The position numbers and the translations under genes are program-made. Shown here in pieces: positions 5,614 through 21,171 of a DNA stretch of 23,459 bases. The stretch is from positions 1 to 23,459 of the IMG/VR virus record IMGVR_UViG_3300012000_000130. One strand, 5' to 3'. The notes under the pieces are model-generated. The model saw only the letters and a list, made by a program, of their open reading frames with translations, made no database searches and was not told where the DNA came from. Position 1 is the stretch's first letter. Each line of letters starts with the position of its first letter. This DNA comes from a virus.

Positions 5614-6918
5614 CTAATTAAAAATTGCGTTAGCTAAAACGTTTTGGTCGCTGTCCGTAGCTTGTGCCGCTGTGCCGTTAGATGCAGCCGTTAAACGTCC
5701 TTGAGCGTCAACAGTAATATTTGCTGTGGTGTACGAACCAGCAGAAACAGCTGTGTTGGCCAGTTTTGTTGCCGTAACTGCTCCAGCTGTAATATCTCCA
5801 GCCACAATAGAGTTATTAAGACTAAGTTTGCTGTAAGCAATTGCCGCCGCAGCATTAATATTGGCATTAACAATAGTTCCATCTGCAATCATTGTTGAGG
5901 TAACTGTTCCAGTATCGGCAGCAGTAATAGCAGTTCCGGAAATCTTTGTTTTATCAATAGCGGCAGAAGCATCGATGTCGGCGTTCACAATTGTGCCATC
6001 CACAATCATTGCGCTAGTAATTGTGGATGCAGGAACAGTACCCCACGCTAAACCAGTTGCCGCAGTTGAATCAACTGTCAACATATGACCGTTCGTAGCA
6101 CCAACAGGAAGACGAACTAAAGAACCGCCGTTACGAGTTAGTAAGTCACCTTTGGTTGTAAGTTGTGACCCACCATCAGCACCCTGAGGGCCTTGAGCAC
6201 CCTGCGCACCTGTAGTCCCCTGAGGTCCTGTATCGCCCTGAGGTCCTATTGCCCCTTGGGGTCCTGTTGCTCCCTGAGGTCCTGTTGCCCCTTGAGGGCC
6301 TACAGCCCCTTGGGGTCCTGTTACCCCTTGGGAACCTTGTGCACCTTGTGGTCCTGTAGCTCCTTGGGGACCAGCAACACCTTGAGGACCAGCGGCACCT
6401 TGCGCTCCTTGAGCGCCTTGCGGACCCTGCGGACCAACTACCGTACTATCTGCACCTGTAGCACCTTGAGGACCCTGTGACCCTTGAGGACCTGTGGAAC
6501 CTTGTGGACCAGTAAAACCTTGTGGTCCTTGAGGGCCAATAACACCTTGCGCACCTGTTGCTCCTTGTGGGCCAGTTGCTCCTTGTGGACCTGTGGCGCC
6601 TTGAGCGCCAGTAAAACCTTGAGAACCAGTAGTCCCCTGCGGACCTGTATTCCCTTGCGCACCCTGTGGTCCTACCGAACCTTGAACACCCTGAGGACCC
6701 TGTGAACCCGTAGCGCCCTGAGCACCTTGAGACCCTTGAGAACCCTGAGCACCAACAGCACCCTGCGAACCTTGAGGACCAACACTACCCTGAGGACCCT
6801 GTGCACCTTGAACACCAGTTGGACCAATATTTGCCGTAGAAACAATCGAAACAACGGCATTAGTGATAGTGCTGTTAGATTCGGTGCTACGGCGAACCGT
6901 TACGGCAACAATAGCCAT
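5614..6918 (-). CDS. Collagen-like tail-fibre protein (434 aa)
   Basis: Residues about 1-32 form a unique head ([14 protein letters not shown]), residues 33-245 are uninterrupted Gly-X-Y triplets rich in GPQG, GAQG and GSQG with one short break at ADSTVV, and residues 248-434 are a non-collagenous tail starting [12 protein letters not shown]. The tail carries two imperfect repeats around MIxDGTIVNAxIxAxAAI and ends in [12 protein letters not shown], typical of phage fibre C-termini. The triplets would form a trimeric collagen helix, giving a stiff fibre. ATG at 6918 overlaps the stop of the upstream gene as TAATG. Confidence 0.85.
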
Positions 6919-7256: not shown

Positions 7257-7684
7257 TACACCACCTTAAAATTACGTCGCGACTTCTCATGGGCAGCAAT
7301 CTGTCCAATAAGTTCATCGAGCTCAGAGTCGGACAACTCCGTTGCCTTCTTATTAGAGTTAACCGTTACCGTAGGTGGCAACATACGGTTGGTGGCCTGT
7401 AGGTAAAGTTGGGCTGACTTGGTGTCACCTTCTAGGGCTTTGTTGTAAAGTGTGTCCAGAAGCTTTTGTGTACGCTCTGGTGAGCCTTGGATGTCGTCTA
7501 CCCGTTTCTTCCATTCGTTGACGAACACTTCTTTTTTTTGCCAGCGTCGTAGGGTGGTTTCGTCCACTTGGTGTTCTATGGCGTACTTTGCTTTGGAGGC
7601 TGGCACCCGCTCCGAGGGAGCGGTGCACAGCCAGTCAAGATAATTTTGTTGTGCAACTGTGAGCGTTGCTTCTTCTATTGCCAT
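7256..7684 (-). CDS. terS: Terminase small subunit-like protein
   Basis: 142 residues from the ATG at 7684 (a TTG one codon upstream is also in frame). Residues 28-60 form a helix-turn-helix of the phBC6A51 terminase small-subunit type (KAKYAIEHQVDETTLRRWQKKEVFVNEWKK in outline), followed by helices with the TQKLLDTLYNKALEGDTKSAQLYL pattern, in which this family mediates oligomerisation. It would recognise the packaging site and guide the large subunit. It is the first gene of the leftward late operon and next to the structured divergent region, where a packaging site could lie. The large subunit is not adjacent: fibre genes follow. Symbol is by analogy. Confidence 0.65.
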   Translation of the reverse strand: MAIEEATLTVAQQNYLDWLCTAPSERVPASKAKYAIEHQVDETTLRRWQKKEVFVNEWKKRVDDIQGSPERTQKLLDTLYNKALEGDTKSAQLYLQATNRMLPPTVTVNSNKKATELSDSELDELIGQIAAHEKSRRNFKVV

Positions 7685-7701: not shown

Positions 7702-7713
7702 GTTACATGTAAC
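7702..7713. promoter_or_regulatory. Perfect 12-bp palindrome in divergent region, operator candidate
   Basis: GTTACATGTAAC is a perfect palindrome 18 bases upstream of the terminase small-subunit start. Its position between the leftward and rightward transcription units fits a repressor or activator operator acting on one or both. No clear -35/-10 pair was found beside it. Confidence 0.4.
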
Positions 7714-7734
7714 GGTCTGGGGGGGACTATAGGG

Positions 7735-7761
7735 GGGGAAACGGAAAAACCCGGTTTCCCC
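7735..7761. promoter_or_regulatory. Hairpin with 8-bp GC-rich arms
   Basis: GGGGAAAC at 7735-7742 pairs perfectly with GTTTCCCC at 7754-7761 across an 11-base loop. It lies in the 146-base divergent spacer and is preceded by runs of G on the plus strand. There is no U tract after it on either strand, so it is not a clear intrinsic terminator. Confidence 0.45.
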
Positions 7762-7769
7762 AACTGGTG

Positions 7770-7799
7770 CAACCGCGGCGCCTCTGGCGCAAGCGGTTG
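7770..7799. promoter_or_regulatory. Strong 12-bp hairpin upstream of small-basic-protein operon
   Basis: CAACCGC (7770-7776) pairs with GCGGTTG (7793-7799), and GCGCC (7778-7782) with GGCGC (7786-7790), around a TCT loop; only a G on one side and AA on the other are unpaired. It ends just before the ACGTACACAAG motif and lies 31 bases before the ATG at 7831, so it would be in the 5' leader of that operon if transcription starts upstream. Confidence 0.55.
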
Positions 7800-7825
7800 A
7801 ACGTACACAAGTCAAGGTTTAAGGA
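7792..7825 (+). promoter_or_regulatory. Leader motif AGCGG-N4-ACGTACACAAG and GGTTTAAGGA (copy 1)
   Basis: AGCGG at 7792-7796, four variable bases, then ACGTACACAAG at 7801-7811, followed by GGTTTAAGGA at 7816-7825, whose AAGGA serves as Shine-Dalgarno for the ATG at 7831. The same elements with the same AGCGG spacing occur at 15375-15394 and 15443-15452 ahead of the replication operon, so this looks like a shared control element. Confidence 0.5.
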
Positions 7826-7830
7826 CAGTT

Positions 7831-7989
7831 ATGCAAAAAAAGCACCCAGGGTTCAAAGCAGTACAAAACAAGATTGCGAAACAGCAAGGCGTTTCGCAAA
7901 AAGCTGCAGGAGCCATTTTGGCTAGCGCAACCCGCAAAGCGTCCCCAGCAGCAAAACGAAAAAACCCAAGACTGAAAAGAGTCAAATAG
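7831..7989 (+). CDS. Small basic phage protein (52 aa)
   Basis: MQKKHPGFKAVQNKIAKQQG continues to QKAAGAILASATRKASPAAKRKNPRLKRVK in outline. This strongly resembles a short basic protein found in many environmental phages (KHPGFKAVQ..IA...GIS...AGAILAS.TR.AS..AK..NP.L..V). AAGGA precedes the ATG by six bases. It is the first of six small basic genes with stop/start overlaps. Function unknown; a virion-associated or nucleic-acid-binding role is suggested by charge alone. Confidence 0.75.
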   Translation: MQKKHPGFKAVQNKIAKQQGVSQKAAGAILASATRKASPAAKRKNPRLKRVK

Positions 7990-8991: not shown

Positions 8992-9332
8992 AAATTTTTA
9001 AGGCACCCTATTTGTTTGCTAGGTACCCCCACTTTTAAAAAATAGTCCAGATGGCTCTGGCTTGTGCCGGTGGTATGTGTAAGTAGGTACGTACCCCCCC
9101 TGCTATCCCCCTCCCTGGGTTCATGTGTGCGCACAACAACAACCAACAGCACCAACACCAAAACAAAACAAAACCAAACCAACGCTGCGTGCACCCAACC
9201 GAGCGACAGAGGAATGTTTATGTTTGTGGGAGGTATGGGTTGTTGTTTGTTTTCTTTTTTGTGAAGAGAGGTTTGGAATGAATTTCCTTGCTCTTTCTTC
9301 TGTCATTATCAACCGTACATGAAAGGAAAGTT
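8992..9332. other. Gene-poor spacer with palindromes and a sharp base-composition switch
   Basis: No convincing protein gene except a possible 14-residue leader at 9278. It contains GGTACGTACC (9086-9095) and TGTGCGCACA (9126-9135), both perfect 10-bp palindromes, a partial repeat of GGTACCCCC near 9022-9030, a nearly pure A/C tract (about 9132-9181) and then a G/T-rich tract (about 9215-9265) with some complementarity to it. The plus strand changes from A/C-rich genes on the left to T/G-rich genes on the right across this spacer. It may hold a promoter, a replication origin or a regulatory RNA; none is proved. Confidence 0.4.
9278..9322 (+). CDS. Possible 14-residue leader peptide
   Basis: ATG at 9278 follows GAAGAGAGG by six bases, a plausible Shine-Dalgarno, and encodes MNFLALSSVIINRT before a TGA that lies ten bases upstream of the next ATG (9333). 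Short leaders in this position sometimes control the downstream gene. With only 14 codons it could equally be chance. Confidence 0.25.
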   Translation: MNFLALSSVIINRT

Positions 9333-10821: not shown

Positions 10822-11889
10822 ATGCCTATTAATAGAGATAATCCTGATTTAACTTGTTGTGATTGTGGTGATGATATTCCTATTGCTTCTAGGTTTTTTA
10901 ATTATGACGAAGATGATGTTCGGTGTGAATCATGTTATGAACATTCTTTTGAAAGTGAAGATGAGCCGTTTGAAAATGAATCTGGTTCTATTTTGAGTTA
11001 TAGCACTAAACCTCGTACACGTTTTTATCATGATGATGGTAATCATGGATTTAAACCTGAAACTTTTAATTATAAAGGTCTTGTCTTGAATCGTCCTTAT
11101 ATGGGTTGCGAGTTGGAAGGTGAGTGTCCTGAAGATGAAAACAGGTATGAGTGGGCTGAGTTAATTACTAGTCGTACTAATGGTCTTATTTATTGCAAGG
11201 ATGATTGCAGTATTCATAATGGTTTTGAAATGGTTAGTCATGCTATGGAACTTGATTATGTGCATAATCATTCAGAGGATTGGCAGTCTGCTGTTAAAGA
11301 TATGCGTAAAGCTGGTTGGCGTGCGTGGGATGCTTCCAATTGTGGTTTCCATATTCATATTGAGAAAAAGAGTTTTGTTAATGCTAAGCATGAGATGAAG
11401 TTTATTTATTTTATTTTTAGGAATAAAGCTAAGTTGGTTAAGTTTGTTGGTAGGAATTCTGAGTATGCTCGGTTTAATCTTGAGTCGTTTATTAATGTTC
11501 GTAGTGATTATTGGAATGATAATAAACCTAATATTCTTGAGGTTGTTAAGGGTGTGCGTAAAGATGGTGGTTATGTTCCTGGTCCTATGGAACGTAATCT
11601 TGCGGTTAATCGTTCTAATTGTAATACGCATGAGTTGCGTATTTTTAAGCCGTCTTTGCGTTTTGAAACTTTGATTTCTTATTTTGAGTTTACGCATTGT
11701 TTGTGGGCGTTCACAAAAGAGTTGGATTATCAAACAATTATTAAGCGTAATGCTTTGTATCAGTTTGATGTTTTCTCTGAGTTTGCTCATGATAATGCTG
11801 GTTTGTATCCGCATTTTGTTGAGCGTTTGCATAAACGTCGTGTGGTTAGTAAACCTGTTGGTTGGGAAGATATATCGGATGATAAATAG
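10822..11889 (+). CDS. Amidoligase family enzyme with N-terminal zinc-binding segment
   Basis: 355 residues; AGAAAGGA lies five bases upstream. An N-terminal Cys cluster (Cys12, 13, 15, then Cys35, Cys38) suggests a zinc ribbon or treble clef. The glutamine-synthetase-like amidoligase fold (Amidoligase_2) is indicated in order by GCELEGE (95-101), DCSIHNGFEMVS (128-139), CGFHIHIEK (174-182) and HELRIFKPSLR (270-280); these acidic, His and Arg residues bind metal-ATP and substrate in the family. It would join an amine to a carboxylate using ATP. The next gene is a class II glutamine amidotransferase, a partnership noted in comparative genomics of these enzymes. Substrate unknown: candidates are peptidoglycan peptides, a protein tail or a small metabolite. 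T-rich codon use matches its neighbours. Confidence 0.8.
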   Translation: MPINRDNPDLTCCDCGDDIPIASRFFNYDEDDVRCESCYEHSFESEDEPFENESGSILSYSTKPRTRFYHDDGNHGFKPETFNYKGLVLNRPYMGCELEGECPEDENRYEWAELITSRTNGLIYCKDDCSIHNGFEMVSHAMELDYVHNHSEDWQSAVKDMRKAGWRAWDASNCGFHIHIEKKSFVNAKHEMKFIYFIFRNKAKLVKFVGRNSEYARFNLESFINVRSDYWNDNKPNILEVVKGVRKDGGYVPGPMERNLAVNRSNCNTHELRIFKPSLRFETLISYFEFTHCLWAFTKELDYQTIIKRNALYQFDVFSEFAHDNAGLYPHFVERLHKRRVVSKPVGWEDISDDK

Positions 11890-11901
11890 AAAGGTAATTT
11901 T

Positions 11902-12963
11902 ATGTGTTTGTTAACTTTTATTAAAGAAAATGCTGAGTTGAAGTATGAGCATGCAAAAAAAGCTGCTATCAGTAATCCTGATGGTTTTGGTTTTGCTATT
12001 CATACTCATTTTGGGATTATTCATGATAAGGATATGGATTTTGGTAAATTGTGGTTGAGATGGGAGGATTTGCGTAAAACGTATTCTGGTGTTGCTTTGT
12101 GGCATTTCAGGATTGCTACTCATGGAACAACAAATATTGATAATTGTCATCCTTTTGTTGTTAATGATGGTAAAGCTGTGCTTGCGCACAACGGCATTTT
12201 GCCGTTGGCTATGCCAGCTAACGATAATCGTTCTGATACTCGTATGTTTGCAGAGTTAGTTTTGCCAGCTATTGGTGGTGTGCAAGCGTTAGATAATCAA
12301 GCGGATTTTGATGCTGTAGCCGAATGGGCTGCTGGTAACAAAATTGTTATTTTGTCTGCTGACCCTAATACTAAATTTGATTATTACATAATTAATGAGT
12401 CTTTGGGTCATTGGGTTGATGATGTTTGGTTTTCTAATTCTTCATACAAAACTTTTACGTACACATCGTATAACGCTTACAGCGGTTATGCGCATGGTTA
12501 TGGTTCGTCATATAAGTCTGCTTGGTTGAGTGATGATTATTATGGTGATGGATGGGATGATGATTTAAGTTTACCACAGCAAGCTTCTTTGGCTGAAGTT
12601 GATGATTATGATGACAATAATTGGAATGAGGTTCAAGAGTATTTGGAAGATGAGTTGTATCCGGATGGTATAACTCTTGAGGTTATTAAAACTTTTACTG
12701 AATATTTGCCTGATTTGCCAGCTAAAGCTACGTGTCACAATTGTGGTGCTATGTATTTTTATGACCCTCTTGATGAGTTTTCTGCGACTCATTGTGGTGA
12801 GTGTAGAAAATGTATGGCTTGTGGTGGTGATACTTGTAATTGTTGGGAACATTACGAGTATGGTCAAAGTTATTTCTATTGGGGTGATGCACAGTCGTCT
12901 AGGTATGGCGTTAAAAATGGTTTAGTTGATGTACCAAAAATTGATGGGAGTGTTTATGTCTAA
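11902..12963 (+). CDS. Class II (Ntn) glutamine amidotransferase with C-terminal Cys-rich domain
   Basis: 353 residues, 12 bases after the amidoligase, AGAAAGG upstream. Met is followed at once by Cys2, the N-terminal nucleophile of Ntn amidotransferases. NPDGFGF (25-31), HFRIATHG (68-75), CHPF (82-85), AHNGIL (95-100) and SDTR (111-114) are the glutamine-site motifs. After about residue 180 the protein departs from the family: a Tyr/Ser/Asp-rich stretch (about 180-245), then eight Cys (278, 281, 298, 301, 304, 307, 312, 314) likely binding two zinc ions. The enzyme should release ammonia from glutamine, or act on gamma-glutamyl amides, in concert with the amidoligase. No synthase domain is fused. 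Target specificity may reside in the zinc domain; that is inference. Confidence 0.85.
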   Translation: MCLLTFIKENAELKYEHAKKAAISNPDGFGFAIHTHFGIIHDKDMDFGKLWLRWEDLRKTYSGVALWHFRIATHGTTNIDNCHPFVVNDGKAVLAHNGILPLAMPANDNRSDTRMFAELVLPAIGGVQALDNQADFDAVAEWAAGNKIVILSADPNTKFDYYIINESLGHWVDDVWFSNSSYKTFTYTSYNAYSGYAHGYGSSYKSAWLSDDYYGDGWDDDLSLPQQASLAEVDDYDDNNWNEVQEYLEDELYPDGITLEVIKTFTEYLPDLPAKATCHNCGAMYFYDPLDEFSATHCGECRKCMACGGDTCNCWEHYEYGQSYFYWGDAQSSRYGVKNGLVDVPKIDGSVYV

Positions 12964-15280: not shown

Positions 15281-15460
15281 TGTGGGGTATTGGTGTTGAA
15301 CCTAAATCCTTGACAGACCGTACACAAATGTGTTTTTATATAATCCCCCTTCAGGGGGGCAGCGGAGACCTGATAGCGGGGGGACGTACACAAGAAGAAG
15401 TACCACGCCAACCGAAGGGTCGGCGTGGTAAGGTTCAGAAACGGTTTAAGGAAGGGTCTA
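15281..15460 (+). promoter_or_regulatory. Structured leader of the replication operon, promoter candidate
   Basis: Contains TTGACA (15310-15315) and TATAAT (15339-15344); each matches consensus but the 23-base spacing is too long for a standard promoter. Immediately after is a hairpin (CCCCCT at 15345-15350 with AGGGGG at 15353-15358), then the AGCGG-N4-ACGTACACAAG motif at 15375-15394, then the 9-bp hairpin at 15401-15430 and GGTTTAAGGA at 15443-15452 as Shine-Dalgarno for the ATG at 15461. CGTACACAA also occurs at 15319-15327. Confidence 0.5.
15401..15430 (+). promoter_or_regulatory. 5' leader hairpin before the Cas4-like nuclease
   Basis: TACCACGCC (15401-15409) pairs perfectly with GGCGTGGTA (15422-15430); inside, ACC and GGT can add three more pairs closed by a GAAG loop. 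It ends 12 bases before the GGTTTAAGGA Shine-Dalgarno region and could influence translation or mRNA stability of the operon. Confidence 0.5.
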
Positions 15461-16303
15461 ATGAGAATTGACAAAGAAACAAACAGGGTTTTTGTTAGAC
15501 AATCCTGGTTGAAAGATATGTTGTTGTGTCCGGAAAGAGCACGACTTGCAGTCGTGCAACCCGAGTTTAAAACGCAAAACGATAGTGCCGCTATTGGTAC
15601 TGCTGTGCACGCGGGCATTGAAGCTGTGTTAGCTAAAGGTGTGTCCGTAAAAGATGCCCCCGAAATTTCGCTTATTAAATTTAAAGAACTTGAAAGTGTT
15701 GGTGTAAACCACACTAATGTAAATCCTGATTCATGGCATAACCATGTGTTGGGTTTAACAGAAGCTTGGGTTAAAGACATTTACCCTAAAGTCCCTATTG
15801 GTGGTAATTCAGAAGTGCCTTTTGCTGTACCAACTAACACATTGGTAAATGGTATGGAATTGTGGTTTGAAGGGACTATGGATTATTTGCATGAAAATGG
15901 TATTTGGGATTGGAAAACAGCTGCCCGTAAATATTCTATTTTAGAAAAACAAACTCAAGATATTCAGTCTTCTATTTATAGTTATGCTGGAGCAAAACTT
16001 GGGGTGTTGCGTGAAGATTCTATTTTTAAATTTGGTGTAATGATAAGAGTCAATAATCATTATGGTCAAATTGTTTCGGTGAATCGCACTAAAGCGCATT
16101 TTGATTTTGTTATTAAACAAGCTGCATCAGCTGTTGCGACAGCATGTGCTATGATGAAAGATAAGGATTCGCCAACGGATGAACGTTGGCTAATAAATGA
16201 CCAACATTACCTGTGTTCGCAACGCTGGTGTCCATGGTGGTCAATATGCAAAGGGGCTCACATAAGTGAGCCCGACAACGAAATAGGAGATAACAATGGA
16301 TAA
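15461..16303 (+). CDS. Cas4/RecB-like PD-(D/E)XK nuclease with four-Cys cluster
   Basis: 280 residues from the ATG at 15461, nine bases after AAGGA; a GTG at 15425 is also open but lies in the leader hairpin. Residues 11-30 hold FVRQSWLKDMLLCPERARL with Cys23; GTAVHAGIEA carries His50; WFEGTMDYL (136-143) and WDWKT (149-153) provide the metal-binding Asp and Lys of the PD-(D/E)XK core; Cys252, Cys257 and Cys263 complete a Cas4/AddB-type Fe-S arrangement. It likely degrades DNA ends, for recombination, host DNA recycling or genome-end processing. It opens the replication operon, overlapping the next gene by eight bases. Confidence 0.85.
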   Translation: MRIDKETNRVFVRQSWLKDMLLCPERARLAVVQPEFKTQNDSAAIGTAVHAGIEAVLAKGVSVKDAPEISLIKFKELESVGVNHTNVNPDSWHNHVLGLTEAWVKDIYPKVPIGGNSEVPFAVPTNTLVNGMELWFEGTMDYLHENGIWDWKTAARKYSILEKQTQDIQSSIYSYAGAKLGVLREDSIFKFGVMIRVNNHYGQIVSVNRTKAHFDFVIKQAASAVATACAMMKDKDSPTDERWLINDQHYLCSQRWCPWWSICKGAHISEPDNEIGDNNG

Positions 16304-16733
16304 AGATAGAGCAATTATTACCCAAGTTGCCGCCAAAATTGCGGCTGATTTGGTTGACAAAACAGCAGAAACCGATTTGAAACTCGGAGAATTTGCTGCT
16401 TTGTTTACAAGTGTAAAAGAAATTATTTTTGAATCAATTGACGCACAATCAACATCAAACGATGCAAAAATTTATGAAATGGCAAAAGAAACATTTAATG
16501 CAACGACTATTTCGGGTAATTCCGAAAACGGTTCTCAAGGCCGTGAAATTGGGTCGTTGCAGATTGTTGGAAAACAACATGGTGATTTGCCAGATTGGCT
16601 TATCAAAGCATGTAAGCGCGATGGTGTAACTAAGGTGTACGACAATCGTGACGGTTTGTCTGTTAACCCTAAACGGCCTTGGTTCAAAGCCGTTGATGCC
16701 GATAAAGCTTACTGGGCACCAAGAACACGATAA
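16296..16733 (+). CDS. Hypothetical protein between nuclease and helicase (145 aa)
   Basis: TAGGAGATAAC precedes the ATG. Residues 1-70 are helical (MDKDRAIITQVAAKIAADLV...), and 85-145 contain SLQIVGKQHGDLPDWLIKAC, then VYDNRDGLSVNPKRPWFKAV and a basic end. Two domains with a polar linker. Its place between a recombination nuclease and a DnaB-like helicase suggests a DNA-binding or recombination accessory role, such as a single-strand binding or annealing partner, but no such fold can be shown from the sequence. Confidence 0.65.
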   Translation: MDKDRAIITQVAAKIAADLVDKTAETDLKLGEFAALFTSVKEIIFESIDAQSTSNDAKIYEMAKETFNATTISGNSENGSQGREIGSLQIVGKQHGDLPDWLIKACKRDGVTKVYDNRDGLSVNPKRPWFKAVDADKAYWAPRTR

Positions 16734-17791
16734 TGAAATTGACCGCAGAACAAATTTCTGCGGGTTGGAATACGGTAGAGGGTCAGGCAACTCCAGATGA
16801 GGTGCCTGACTCTTTAACTGTAAGCCCACCTACAGAATACAGAATGTATGAACCTTTGGCTGAAGCTGCACATTCGTTTGTTCGTTGGGCTCAAAGTCCA
16901 CAAGAACGAATTCATTTAGGGTTGCAACAAATAGATACGGAGATGCGAGGCATTGCGTCTGGTGAATTAGCGATGATGATTGGCTATTCGCATGGTGGTA
17001 AAACTTTAATGTTGTTGCATTCGTTGCAATTTAATCGCGATAAACATGTGGCCTTGTTTATTCCGGATGAACCACGTCAACTTATTTTGACTAAATTAAC
17101 GTGCATTAGACACAACATTGATGCACGAGAACTTGAACATCGTGTTGCGTCTGACGACCAAGAAGCCATTGATTTATTGAGACAGACGGCTGAAGAAGAT
17201 TTCCCAAACTTAACTGTATTTGACCAGCCTTTAAATGCTCTTGATATGGAACGCGCATACAATGAAGTGTGTGATGTGTGGGGTCAAATACCCGACCTTG
17301 TAGTTGTTGACTATCTTGACTTGGTGGATGCTGGTGAAACTGTGCCAGATAAAGCAACATTTTTGAAATCATTTGGTAGAAGACATGACATACCAATGTT
17401 GGTGTTGCATCAAACTTCGCGTGGTTCAGGTGATGAAGGCAAAAAACTGAGTATGTCTTCGGGTGCTTATGGTGGCGAACAACAAGCAACTTCTATTATT
17501 GGTGTTAGGCGCAAAAAATATTCTATTATCGCTGAAATAAATGAATTAAATCTTAAACTTGACCGTGCACATTCTGAACGACTTATTGAACGTTTAGATG
17601 AGTTGCGTTATAATTTGCGTATTCACGAATACACGGTGACTGTAAGTTTGTTGAAAAACAAACGTCCAGCGGGTCAACTTGTTGATGATATTGATTATGA
17701 AATAGACTTAGCAACCGGCAAATTAACACCGTTGCATAATGGTGATTTGCCCAAACAGTATTTAAGAAATCTTCATGGACAACAATTCTAA
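16733..17791 (+). CDS. DnaB/RecA-like replicative helicase ATPase
   Basis: 352 residues, TAATG overlap with the previous gene. After about 70 N-terminal residues comes a RecA core: Walker A GYSHGGKT (84-91), an acidic motif after FIPDEP (109-114), Walker B LVVVDYLDL (189-197) and sensor-like LHQTSRGSG (225-233), followed by a basic RRKKYS. GELAMMIGYSHGGKT is typical of DnaB-family and RadA-like phage helicases. The protein is shorter than host DnaB and lacks its primase-interaction domain. Next gene is a primase, so it likely unwinds phage DNA at the fork. Overlap with that gene is 17 bases. Confidence 0.85.
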   Translation: MKLTAEQISAGWNTVEGQATPDEVPDSLTVSPPTEYRMYEPLAEAAHSFVRWAQSPQERIHLGLQQIDTEMRGIASGELAMMIGYSHGGKTLMLLHSLQFNRDKHVALFIPDEPRQLILTKLTCIRHNIDARELEHRVASDDQEAIDLLRQTAEEDFPNLTVFDQPLNALDMERAYNEVCDVWGQIPDLVVVDYLDLVDAGETVPDKATFLKSFGRRHDIPMLVLHQTSRGSGDEGKKLSMSSGAYGGEQQATSIIGVRRKKYSIIAEINELNLKLDRAHSERLIERLDELRYNLRIHEYTVTVSLLKNKRPAGQLVDDIDYEIDLATGKLTPLHNGDLPKQYLRNLHGQQF

Positions 17792-18656
17792 TACAACACA
17801 ATTATTTGCCGAACTGTTCGCGGGTCGCACAGATGTGTATGGTTCATGGGAAGGTGGCTGTATTAAACAGCCTGTTACTCTTGGTTCGTTCACAAAACAT
17901 TTATGGGGTCAAGAATATATTGGTATTTACCCAATGATGGAAAACAGTACTGTTTGGTGGGGGTGTTCAGATATTGATGTAAACGACATAGACCAGGCTT
18001 TAAATTTGCAACTAGCTTTGCAAATAAAAAATATCAAAAGTTGGGTTGAGCAAACTGTTAAAGGTTTCCATGTTTGGGTGTTTGCTGAAGCACCTGTGGA
18101 CGCAAAAATTATGCGGCGAGCTTTACTCGCCGCCCATGCAGCAGTTAAAGTTCCAGCAAAAGAAATAAATCCCAAACAAGAAGTTGCGTCAGGTTATGGC
18201 AACTATGTACGCCTACCTTATCCTGGTGCGTTATTTGAGTTAAATAAACAACGTTTTATGCTGGATGGAAATAATAATCCGATATCGCTTGAAAAGTTTG
18301 TTGTTGATGCAACAAATAATAGAACGTCAACAAGTTTGTTAGAGCCTTTAGCCGAATTGTACGTTCCCAAACAGCCTGCTGTTTTCAATACGGACACAGA
18401 AGCAATGGCTTTAGAGGTTGCAAAAACGGTGTTGAATCCTTATACGTATCGAATGTTGGCTGAAGGACCATTAAAAGGTTCTGACCGTTCAAGTACGTTG
18501 GTGCGTTTTGCTTATCGTCTTAGGTCTGATGGGTTACCAGCACCCCTCGCATACGGGGTGCTTAAACGTGCAGATATGCAATGGGGTAAATTTTATGCCA
18601 GAGTTGATGGAGAAATTCATTTAACAAAAATTATTGCTGACGTATACGGCGAATGA
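17775..18656 (+). CDS. Archaeo-eukaryotic-type primase (primase-polymerase)
   Basis: 293 residues. WWGCSDIDV holds the catalytic Asp66-x-Asp68; VKGFHVWVF provides the conserved Gly-x-His (His99) motif; INPKQEVASGYGNYVRLPYP (131-150) is the segment with the conserved Lys and the strand that binds the nucleotide, as in phage and TOTE-type AEP primases. Residues about 210-293 form a helical C-terminal part (SSTLVRFAYRLRSDGL..., ending in HLTKIIADVYGE) like primase-associated helical domains. It should make primers, and perhaps extend DNA, beside the helicase just upstream. No separate DNA polymerase gene is in the window. Confidence 0.8.
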   Translation: MDNNSNTTQLFAELFAGRTDVYGSWEGGCIKQPVTLGSFTKHLWGQEYIGIYPMMENSTVWWGCSDIDVNDIDQALNLQLALQIKNIKSWVEQTVKGFHVWVFAEAPVDAKIMRRALLAAHAAVKVPAKEINPKQEVASGYGNYVRLPYPGALFELNKQRFMLDGNNNPISLEKFVVDATNNRTSTSLLEPLAELYVPKQPAVFNTDTEAMALEVAKTVLNPYTYRMLAEGPLKGSDRSSTLVRFAYRLRSDGLPAPLAYGVLKRADMQWGKFYARVDGEIHLTKIIADVYGE

Positions 18657-18994: not shown

Positions 18995-19419
18995 AAGAGT
19001 CAAGATGGGATATTCCTAAACCAAACTTTAAAAAAGATTTAGAGTTTGGCAAACAGGGCGAAGACCAAGTTAAACAATTCCTGCAAGGAATTGTTAATGG
19101 GTCATTTGAAGTCAAATCTGACCGGTATCGCAACGGGAAAATGGTGGTAGAAATAGCCCAAAACCCTCGTAAACATGGGTGGAAACCGTCAGGCATTATG
19201 ATAACCGAAGCAGAGTGGTGGGTTTATGTGTATACTATGAACCAAGCAATGATAGTGGTGTCCACGGAAAGATTAAAGCGTTATATAAAAATGTTACCAA
19301 AGTCAAGAATTAGGTTGTTTGCGGAAGGCACAAATAATCCAGCGAAGGGTTATTTGTTGTTGCCAGAGGAAGTTTCACAACTCCTCTACGATTCCGCATA
19401 CGACGATGTCAAAGAATGA
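18991..19419 (+). CDS. PD-(D/E)XK-like endonuclease-fold protein (142 aa)
   Basis: ATGA overlap with rusA. LEFGKQGEDQVKQFL (Glu24), FEVKSDRYRNGKMVVEIAQN (Asp44, Glu54) and SGIMITEAEWWVYV follow the order helix, E-V-K-x-D, strand with Glu, then GIxxTxAxWW seen in a phage nuclease family related to Holliday-junction or restriction endonucleases. The Lys normally two residues after the second acid is replaced (VEIAQ), so it may use Lys61 or Lys65 or be inactive. It follows RusA, suggesting DNA branch or end processing. Fold assignment moderate. Confidence 0.6.
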   Translation: MKESRWDIPKPNFKKDLEFGKQGEDQVKQFLQGIVNGSFEVKSDRYRNGKMVVEIAQNPRKHGWKPSGIMITEAEWWVYVYTMNQAMIVVSTERLKRYIKMLPKSRIRLFAEGTNNPAKGYLLLPEEVSQLLYDSAYDDVKE

Positions 19420-20254
19420 CATTCCCCAAGACAATTACGTCTTTTCATCTACTTATTTAAATAAACAGCGTCCACAAACGGCGATGGAAGCGTTAATGCT
19501 TTCTGTGTCCGATGTGGTAGAAGAATCAGTAGAAGAACTACAACCGCTACGCGAAGCCGTAGCAATGTGCATTGAACAGCTTGACGAACAGGACCAGTTC
19601 ATTGTGAACGCAGTTAACAGTGAGTTTCTTTCTTACGAGCAGCTTGGTAAACGCCTTGGCGTTTCCAAGCCTCATGCGTGGCGTCTTAAGAACAATGCCT
19701 ATGCTAAACTACAACAGCTATTAACAATGCACCCACTAATCAGAAAGAAGGTCAGAGTGGTGACTACATGGGAACAATCAGCAAGTCAATGGGTTATGCA
19801 CATTGCATCATTTGCTACAGAAGAAATGGAAACTAACAACGCAAAACTTATGCGTCTTTGCGAATCGGCAAAAAAATGTTTGTTTGACAGCGACGATTTA
19901 CCTGTGTCTTTGTTGTGGACCGAAATAGGTATTGAAGCAATTCAAGAATTACGTTTACGCGGTGTTTGGGATTCTGGCGAAATGTGTTCTTTGTTGGTAT
20001 CTAAACAACATGATTATGGTCATGGCAACATAACAGCATTTGGTCTTAAGGGCGTCCTTGTGCGTTTGTCCGACAAGATTGAGCGTTTAAATAATCTTAA
20101 ATCCAAAAAATCTAAAGCACAAAATGAATCGTTGCTTGATACGCTACGAGACATAGTGGGCTATTGTGTAATAGCTTTGATGCTTAACGACGAAACATTT
20201 CATTTGGAATTAGGAGAGAATTATGCGAACGAGTCAGTTAGTGATTGGATTTGA
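19406..20254 (+). CDS. HTH (sigma-region-4-like) fused to DUF1599/Nmad1 domain
   Basis: 282 residues from the ATG at 19406, which overlaps the previous gene by 14 bases; a longer frame from 19319 lies wholly inside that gene and is unlikely. Residues 50-105 include EQLDEQDQFIVNAV and LSYEQLGKRLGVSKPHAWRL, a helix-turn-helix like sigma-70 region 4. Residues about 195-262 (SKQHDYGHGNITAFG, VRLSDKIERLNNL, ESLLDTLRDIVGYCVIALML) match DUF1599, the nucleotide-modification-associated domain 1. The middle (106-190) is helical and unassigned. The protein may bind DNA and act in nucleotide or base modification; both roles are inferred. Confidence 0.7.
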   Translation: MSKNDIPQDNYVFSSTYLNKQRPQTAMEALMLSVSDVVEESVEELQPLREAVAMCIEQLDEQDQFIVNAVNSEFLSYEQLGKRLGVSKPHAWRLKNNAYAKLQQLLTMHPLIRKKVRVVTTWEQSASQWVMHIASFATEEMETNNAKLMRLCESAKKCLFDSDDLPVSLLWTEIGIEAIQELRLRGVWDSGEMCSLLVSKQHDYGHGNITAFGLKGVLVRLSDKIERLNNLKSKKSKAQNESLLDTLRDIVGYCVIALMLNDETFHLELGENYANESVSDWI

Positions 20255-20803: not shown

Positions 20804-21171
20804 GGCCAGTAATTGTACTTTGGGACGACGCCTACTCGGAAGATGAGTGGATGAGTGTTGAGCACTACAACCCCAAGCCCGAAACCCCAAACATTTCTAT
20901 TGGTTACATTGTTGCCTACAACAACAATTACATTCACGTTGCGTCCACAATTGACCAAGACGGGGGTAATTGCTGCGGGATTATGGCAATCCCTTATGAC
21001 ATGATTGTGTACGTAGCCCCACTACAGATTCTGAGTGAAGCCAAAATGTACGGTGATAAAGAAGAATTTGAGCGATACTTGCAAGGCAAGTTCGCTCAAC
21101 GAGCCGAGGTTTACGAGTTTATTGAGCCTGCGGAAATATCTTCAGAAACGAATCCCGAACCTTCTGTTTAG
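20800..21171 (+). CDS. Hypothetical beta-rich protein (123 aa), last early gene
   Basis: ATG at 20800 overlaps the TGA of the coiled-coil gene, favoured over an in-frame ATG at 20782. MRPVIVLWDDAYSEDEWMSV, then SIGYIVAYNNNYIHVASTID and CCGIMAIPYDMIVYVAPL. The pattern, with a strand, WxD, then I-x-x-G-x-hydrophobic and I-P-x-x-M-I-x-V, is that of a small regulatory-type beta fold. Ends the plus-strand operon and overlaps the convergent peptidase gene by 53 bases. Unknown function. Confidence 0.65.
   Translation: MRPVIVLWDDAYSEDEWMSVEHYNPKPETPNISIGYIVAYNNNYIHVASTIDQDGGNCCGIMAIPYDMIVYVAPLQILSEAKMYGDKEEFERYLQGKFAQRAEVYEFIEPAEISSETNPEPSV

Follow-up and report, generated by a model that had tools for sequence, protein, structure and literature searches.

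In phage lambda, one leader element with a hairpin, nutL or nutR, stands before two operons, and its boxB hairpins and boxA keep their sequence. Cluster K mycobacteriophages carry the 13-bp SAS sequence GGGATAGGAGCCC in 11 to 19 copies per genome, a few base pairs before start codons; about half of the sites have an inverted repeat directly upstream (PMC3203893). ESAS consists of 17-bp inverted repeats whose sequence is kept within a genome and for which that study gives little support to a hairpin (PMC3203893). In human mitochondrial DNA (mtDNA), a hybrid G-quadruplex that forms at CSB 2 from G-runs after a promoter, and that is linked to replication priming, is established (PMC5027508). At CSB 2, non-template G-runs with a short interruption lie downstream of a promoter and are linked to transcription control and replication priming (PMC5027508, PMC3905843), and DNA:RNA hybrid G-quadruplexes from such G-runs are described as a class (PMC3905843).

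Here we describe two leaders, A and B, in an actinobacterial-type virus fragment from IMG/VR; the window is this whole stretch of 23,459 bases. Like SAS and ESAS, they present a repeated actinobacteriophage leader element beside start codons with an inverted repeat nearby; unlike them, the element stands in two leaders only and keeps the shape of its hairpin while the sequence is free. SAS has no match in the window at up to 2 mismatches. The hairpins of leaders A and B are unrelated to each other in sequence, so we found neither a kept inverted-repeat consensus of the ESAS type nor the common hairpin sequence of lambda nut, although a hairpin-bearing element before two operons does recall nut. 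As in CSB 2, each putative start region holds at least two non-template G-runs with an interruption, and a promoter upstream is clear only for leader B; in contrast to CSB 2, this is a double-stranded DNA phage with bacterial promoters and a longer, variable gap.

Layout of the two leaders

The features discussed below are as follows.

7702 to 7713, no strand assigned: GTTACATGTAAC, a perfect palindrome that separates minus-strand terS from the G-runs
7719 to 7738, plus: G-run pair of leader A, GGGGGGGACTATAGGGGGGG (G7-ACTATA-G7); G4Hunter score 2.32, the best of the plus strand
7770 to 7799, plus: hairpin A, CAACCGC-g-GCGCC-tct-GGCGC-aa-GCGGTTG; -22.6 kcal/mol, z -2.1
7792 to 7811, plus: motif copy A; AGCGG in the 3' arm of the hairpin, and ACGTACACAAG (7801 to 7811) as the unpaired A/C-rich linker before the Shine-Dalgarno sequence
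7816 to 7825, plus: GGTTTAAGGA with Shine-Dalgarno-like AAGGA; ATG at 7831
7831 to 7989, plus: 52-aa open reading frame (ORF), the first in the small-basic-protein block, without a family match
9092 to 9116, minus: third G-run site, C, where the small-protein block ends; only one site of the window scores higher in G4Hunter
15310 to 15344, plus: promoter-like hexamers TTGACA (15310) and TATAAT (15339), 23 nt apart
15354 to 15383, plus: G-run pair of leader B, GGGGGG-N18-GGGGGG
15375 to 15394, plus: motif copy B; here AGCGG merges with the second G-run, and ACGTACACAAG (15384 to 15394) precedes the hairpin; not kept in sister phages
15401 to 15430, plus: hairpin B, TACCACGCC-a-ACC-gaag-GGT-c-GGCGTGGTA; z -3.7
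15443 to 15452, plus: GGTTTAAGGA with Shine-Dalgarno sequence; ATG at 15461
15461 to 18656, plus: replication operon downstream of leader B, with a PD-(D/E)XK exonuclease, a 145-aa protein, a DnaB-like helicase and an AEP-type primase

The replication-type genes identified in the window are the exonuclease, DnaB, the AEP primase and RusA. We collected 17 related loci through the exonuclease and 56 through the helicase. Synteny is kept in these relatives: terS on the minus strand, then small genes, an amidoligase and, further on, a lysis-like gene followed by the exonuclease, the 145-aa gene, helicase and primase. Amidoligase-like and glutamine-amidotransferase-like genes lie side by side in the window (10822 to 12963), and most relatives searched have an amidoligase-like gene. 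Elsewhere in the window, the ORF at 19409 to 20254 has a sigma-factor-like part (residues about 15 to 106) apparently fused to a nucleotide-modification-associated domain (DUF1599), and the structural half encodes a collagen-like protein with Gly-X-Y repeats (6191 to 6828, minus).

In the relatives, both leaders keep the same layout: a G-run pair, a hairpin, an A/C-rich linker, a Shine-Dalgarno sequence and ATG. At leader A, divergent from terS, relatives have G7-ACTATA-G7, with GGGGGGGACTATAGGGGGGG kept exactly in most, or a variant containing GGGTAGGG, and then the hairpin; GGGTAGGG occupies the gap in a few relatives, where the site retains the capability to form a G-quadruplex, and L078 lacks the usual form. 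After the hairpin often come ACACAAG or CCACAG, the Shine-Dalgarno sequence and ATG. At leader B, two runs of G6 to G8 stand 3 to 18 nt apart, downstream of hexamers resembling TATAAT or TACAAT; distant relatives have GGGGGGGAAAGGGGGGG or GGGGGGAACCTACGGAGGGGGG, and L038 and L035 are without the pair. The leader B hexamers of the window were not called by a standard promoter scan; the same leader of L038 reads TTGACA-N17-TATACT. No convincing -35/-10 pair was found in leader A.

The window has G-run pairs only at A and B (none in 100 shuffles). Eighteen relatives, most of them close to 40 kb long, show such pairs at A, B and C and practically nowhere else. Those at A and B persist while their gaps range from 3 to 18 nt. 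The helicase has a single INPHARED relative, MW202803; the 27 kb read of it contain no pair. G4Hunter scores peak at site A on the plus strand of the window and at site C on the minus strand. GGGGGGGACTATAGGGGGGG is the sole canonical G-quadruplex motif (G3+N1-7, four times) on its plus strand; leader B lacks this intramolecular motif and, because its runs are G6, would allow a hybrid or a two-tetrad structure only, not a canonical intramolecular quadruplex of three tetrads. Around site C (9040 to 9200), a non-coding stretch, ATGGATGGCATC..GCCGTAGCC, is conserved among relatives and may be a small RNA or a further control region.

The hairpins are conserved in shape. The sequence-only reading had noted a strong hairpin in each leader, and this extends well beyond the window: 45 of 54 leaders fold better than 95% of their shuffles (24 of 31 at A, 21 of 23 at B), and 41 of 54 reach a stem score of at least 9, a level seen at 16% of the 390 other gene starts examined and in 13% of random windows. 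Their sequences are unrelated between groups, and most stems have one small interruption. This is a test of shape rather than of column-wise covariation, as the stems differ too much for an alignment free of fitting; low scores in some shortened slices (e.g., B_L015 and B_L016) contrast with full leaders, which fold well. Rfam covariance models gave no match in either leader at E of at most 1. An intrinsic terminator on the plus strand was rejected for both leaders, as no T-run follows the hairpins.

Sequence comparison thus points to a single composite type of leader, present as A and as B, and not to a 16-nt regulator site that occurs twice. Since relatives keep the G-runs and hairpin without ACGTACACAAG, the shared layout is old and the shared 16-mer either recent or fortuitous. 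It had been proposed that one regulator, or one RNA-level mechanism, controls both operons; because a single architecture is common to both leaders in dozens of relatives, a common mechanism at the DNA or RNA level is likely, while the sequence suggested as its recognition site finds no support (see below).

G-run pairs in unrelated phages

The exact 20-mer of leader A is present in at least 120 IMG/VR stretches and in 18 stretches of GTDB genomes, as a single copy per contig stretch, and the matches listed fall into about 32 unrelated flank groups. It lies beside terS; in a marine T7-like group (L228), 33 to 50 nt downstream of TerL; near TerL in L195 and L211; and in the interior of O-like, DnaD-like or primosomal genes. 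The gap ACTATA is kept exactly in many lineages. In an unbiased sample of G7-N(1-16)-G7, short AT-rich gaps are common (TA, AAA, TTT, ACACA, ATTTA, ATATA). Pooling this sample with the 20-mer matches gave 128 non-redundant sites, which are samples rather than a full census; 57 of them fall in ORFs of at least 100 aa, even though these ORFs make up 76% of the sequence. Among 53 ORFs with a G7-AT-rich-G7 site, 12 match the primosomal family phrog_9327 and 10 the replication initiation family phrog_270; initiator families are predominant there, and none of these families is in the top 25 for 56 control ORFs from the same contigs. The G-strand is the template strand of the gene at 36 of the 57 intragenic sites, opposite to leaders A and B. 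Intergenic pairs in the unrelated phages L376, L415, L416, L458 and L485 start 29 to 30 nt after TTGACA.

The gene ydaU of Rac in Escherichia coli K-12 contains a pair of the same class, CCCCCCCTAAATCCCCCCC (NC_000913.3, 1421632 to 1421650), and the O-like gene of Gifsy-2 has G5-ATTAAA-G5. Rac has an active origin, oriJ (PMC3945230), which we infer overlaps ydaU. The pairs of these other phages resemble a lambda-type origin in lying inside an initiator gene, and lambda iterons also carry G-runs (GGGGG); they differ in having one G-run pair with an AT-rich gap instead of four iterons and dyad symmetry, and the pairs of the window stand in leaders. No lambda-type iteron origin was recognized here, with no O-like gene among the genes tested in this fragment.

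In L372 (Prochlorococcus phage P-SCSP2), GGACACTATAGGAGA, directly after terL, resembles a T7/SP6-type promoter and takes the position where marine relatives carry G7-ACTATA-G7. A reading of the site as a promoter of a T7-type RNA polymerase (ACTATAGGG; P-SCSP2 carries GACACTATAGGAGA after TerL) was set aside, as the 20-mer is single-copy per contig stretch.

A limited search of the open-access literature found no paper on the motif. A survey of double-stranded DNA viruses gives quadruplex motif counts by annotated region, and this part of it does not describe the G-run pair (PMC8036883).

Possible mechanism and alternatives

Two G-runs are the minimum for a hybrid DNA:RNA quadruplex. Because two non-template G-runs suffice elsewhere, and because CSB 2 is tied to priming, we favor, tentatively and at somewhat less than an even chance, the reading that each leader combines a promoter-proximal or origin-associated G-quadruplex/R-loop element with a leader hairpin. 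The order of parts would be a promoter-like -10 (where present), a non-template G-run pair near the expected transcript start, a bulged hairpin, an A/C-rich linker, the Shine-Dalgarno sequence and ATG. When RNA polymerase moves off the promoter, a G-quadruplex, possibly a hybrid one, may form together with an R-loop from the G-runs of the displaced strand, the nascent RNA or both; this could tune early transcription and might also keep the DNA open or leave a replication primer. The hairpin would keep the G-rich 5' end apart from the ribosome site, protect or process the mRNA, or do both. In this phage, such control would apply to the small-basic-protein block and to the replication operon.

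A broader version, which we regard as rather doubtful, would make G7-short AT-rich gap-G7 a general cis-element of tailed phages, placed at origins within initiator genes or directly after promoters and coupling transcription to the start of replication through a G-quadruplex/R-loop, with these leaders and Rac ydaU as instances. Intragenic sites mostly have their G-strand as the template strand, the reverse of A and B, so a single mechanism may fail to account for both. This bias and the exact ACTATA gap, which a pure structure model leaves unexplained, are the main points against the quadruplex/R-loop reading.

The strongest rival, unlikely in our estimation, takes the G-run pair as a sequence-specific site for a phage protein (a replication initiator, terminase or regulator), with the G-runs as direct-repeat half sites. 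The recurrence of one 20-mer, ACTATA included, across the flank groups counted above is what such a site would leave, as is its location in initiator genes, where lambda ori iterons, likewise in gene O, end in G-runs. Yet the gap varies from 2 to 18 nt and is free in sequence, so the spacing of the supposed half sites is not fixed, and the replication genes tested in this genome fragment include no O-like or DnaD-like initiator.

It is fairly improbable, too, that the hairpin and linker are the functional unit, as a translational operator, an RNase III/RNase E site or a 5' stabilizer, and that the G-runs only mark the start of a strong promoter. Most leaders do share a similar bulged shape with unrelated sequence directly before the ribosome site, but G-run pairs persist without a hairpin or gene start in the T7-like group and in initiator genes.

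Between terS and the G-runs, the GTTAC..GTAAC inverted repeat (7702 to 7713) is conserved with compensating arms. In relatives, it is found near the first G-run with arms of up to 11 bp and a spacing of 0 to 41 nt, for example, ATCGTAACCT..AGGTTACGAT in L070 and AATCGTTACAT..ATGTAACGATT in L249. It is a candidate operator, terminase site or minus-strand leader stem.

That this palindrome and the adjacent G-run pair form a packaging site, cos or pac, seems improbable. Site A is nearly invariant and adjoins terS in the group of the window and TerL in the marine T7-like L228 and in L195/L211; pairs also occur, however, at B and C and within initiator genes of other phages. Contigs of about 40 kb span A, unlike what is expected of cos, and their ends are scattered; we therefore rejected a cos site at A, which lies at scattered internal positions of these contigs, contig ends being indirect evidence.

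The shared 16-mer

The similarity first noticed between the leaders, AGCGG-N4-ACGTACACAAG with identical spacing, is exact at 7792 to 7811 and at 15375 to 15394 and greater than chance would give in the window: allowing up to 3 mismatches yields 3 matches, against a mean of 0.13 in dinucleotide shuffles, and 0 of 100 shuffles reached 3. The third match (21004 to 21023, minus, 2 mismatches) is within a gene. GGTTTAAGGA does lie near both start codons, as had been observed, and in the window occurs only there; it precedes ATG by 5 nt in A and 8 nt in B, is largely Shine-Dalgarno sequence (AAGGA), and follows the motif by 4 nt in leader A versus 48 nt in leader B.

The exact match in two leaders is what a single regulator binding AGCGG-N4-ACGTACACAAG would produce, but such a regulator is very improbable. 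The pieces belong to different structural elements: the hairpin precedes ACGTACACAAG in leader A and follows it in leader B, and AGCGG is part of the hairpin 3' arm in A and of the second G-run (GATAGCGGGGGG) in B. Among about 50 relatives, the 16-mer breaks up. Upstream of the exonuclease, sisters at 81 to 88% identity lack ACGTACACAAG and keep the G-runs and hairpin; at the motif position of leader B, sisters have CAAGCAACAAG, ACATACACAAG or CAAAGAACAAG. In a search for the combined motif, as the sequence-only reading had suggested, the 16 fixed bases match 11 IMG/VR stretches, in leaders only within the group of the window (L006, L011, L014), and the printed contexts of the other eight are unrelated sequence. 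ACACAAG..GGTTTAAGGA matches 106 IMG/VR stretches, most of which are not loci of this group.

Frequent occurrence of the motif inside unrelated coding sequence, which had been named as speaking against a common regulator, is close to what we found. CGTACACA, a part of the motif that lies mostly within genes and on both strands, is the top overrepresented 8-mer under a third-order model (8 in the window versus 0.5 expected; 27 in seven sisters versus 2.4), and the motif ACGTACACAAG recurs in this genome because it contains this genome-wide word. We rejected the motif as an operator on its lack of conservation and on the dispersal of CGTACACA.

CGTNCACA is overrepresented in this phage and two related groups, again on both strands and mostly within genes (in the window, for example, at 7467 [minus], 7802, 7993, 9949, 12458, 15319, 15385 and 21006 [minus]). 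Its excess persists under synonymous codon shuffling in the window (23 versus 8.5 ± 2.1), the sisters (67 versus 26.6 ± 4.1) and group 2 (88 versus 38.4 ± 5.7) and is absent in the more distant group 3 (31 versus 26.2 ± 4.3). It could be a Chi-like sequence, a dispersed repressor site or a word of the host. A DnaA box was rejected, as TTWTNCACA is not enriched (3 versus 2.2 in the window; 16 versus 16.7 in the sisters).

A poly-G artefact of two-color sequencing, suggested by contigs of the unbiased sample that end in pure poly-G (e.g., L407 and L420), has a negligible chance of explaining the pairs, since A and B are internal and recur at one position across many contigs whose metagenome identifiers differ, and a G-run pair of the same class stands in the E. 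coli K-12 reference genome.

Significance

Even if the proposed mechanism is wrong, the presence of one exact sequence in about 32 unrelated phage flank groups, among the matches listed, needs explaining, and the proposal is testable in E. coli K-12 because one copy lies in Rac ydaU. If it is true, replication start regions and early promoters would be recognizable in many uncultured phages by a simple feature of their DNA, and tailed phages would join mitochondrial CSB 2 as a case of transcription-linked G-quadruplex priming.
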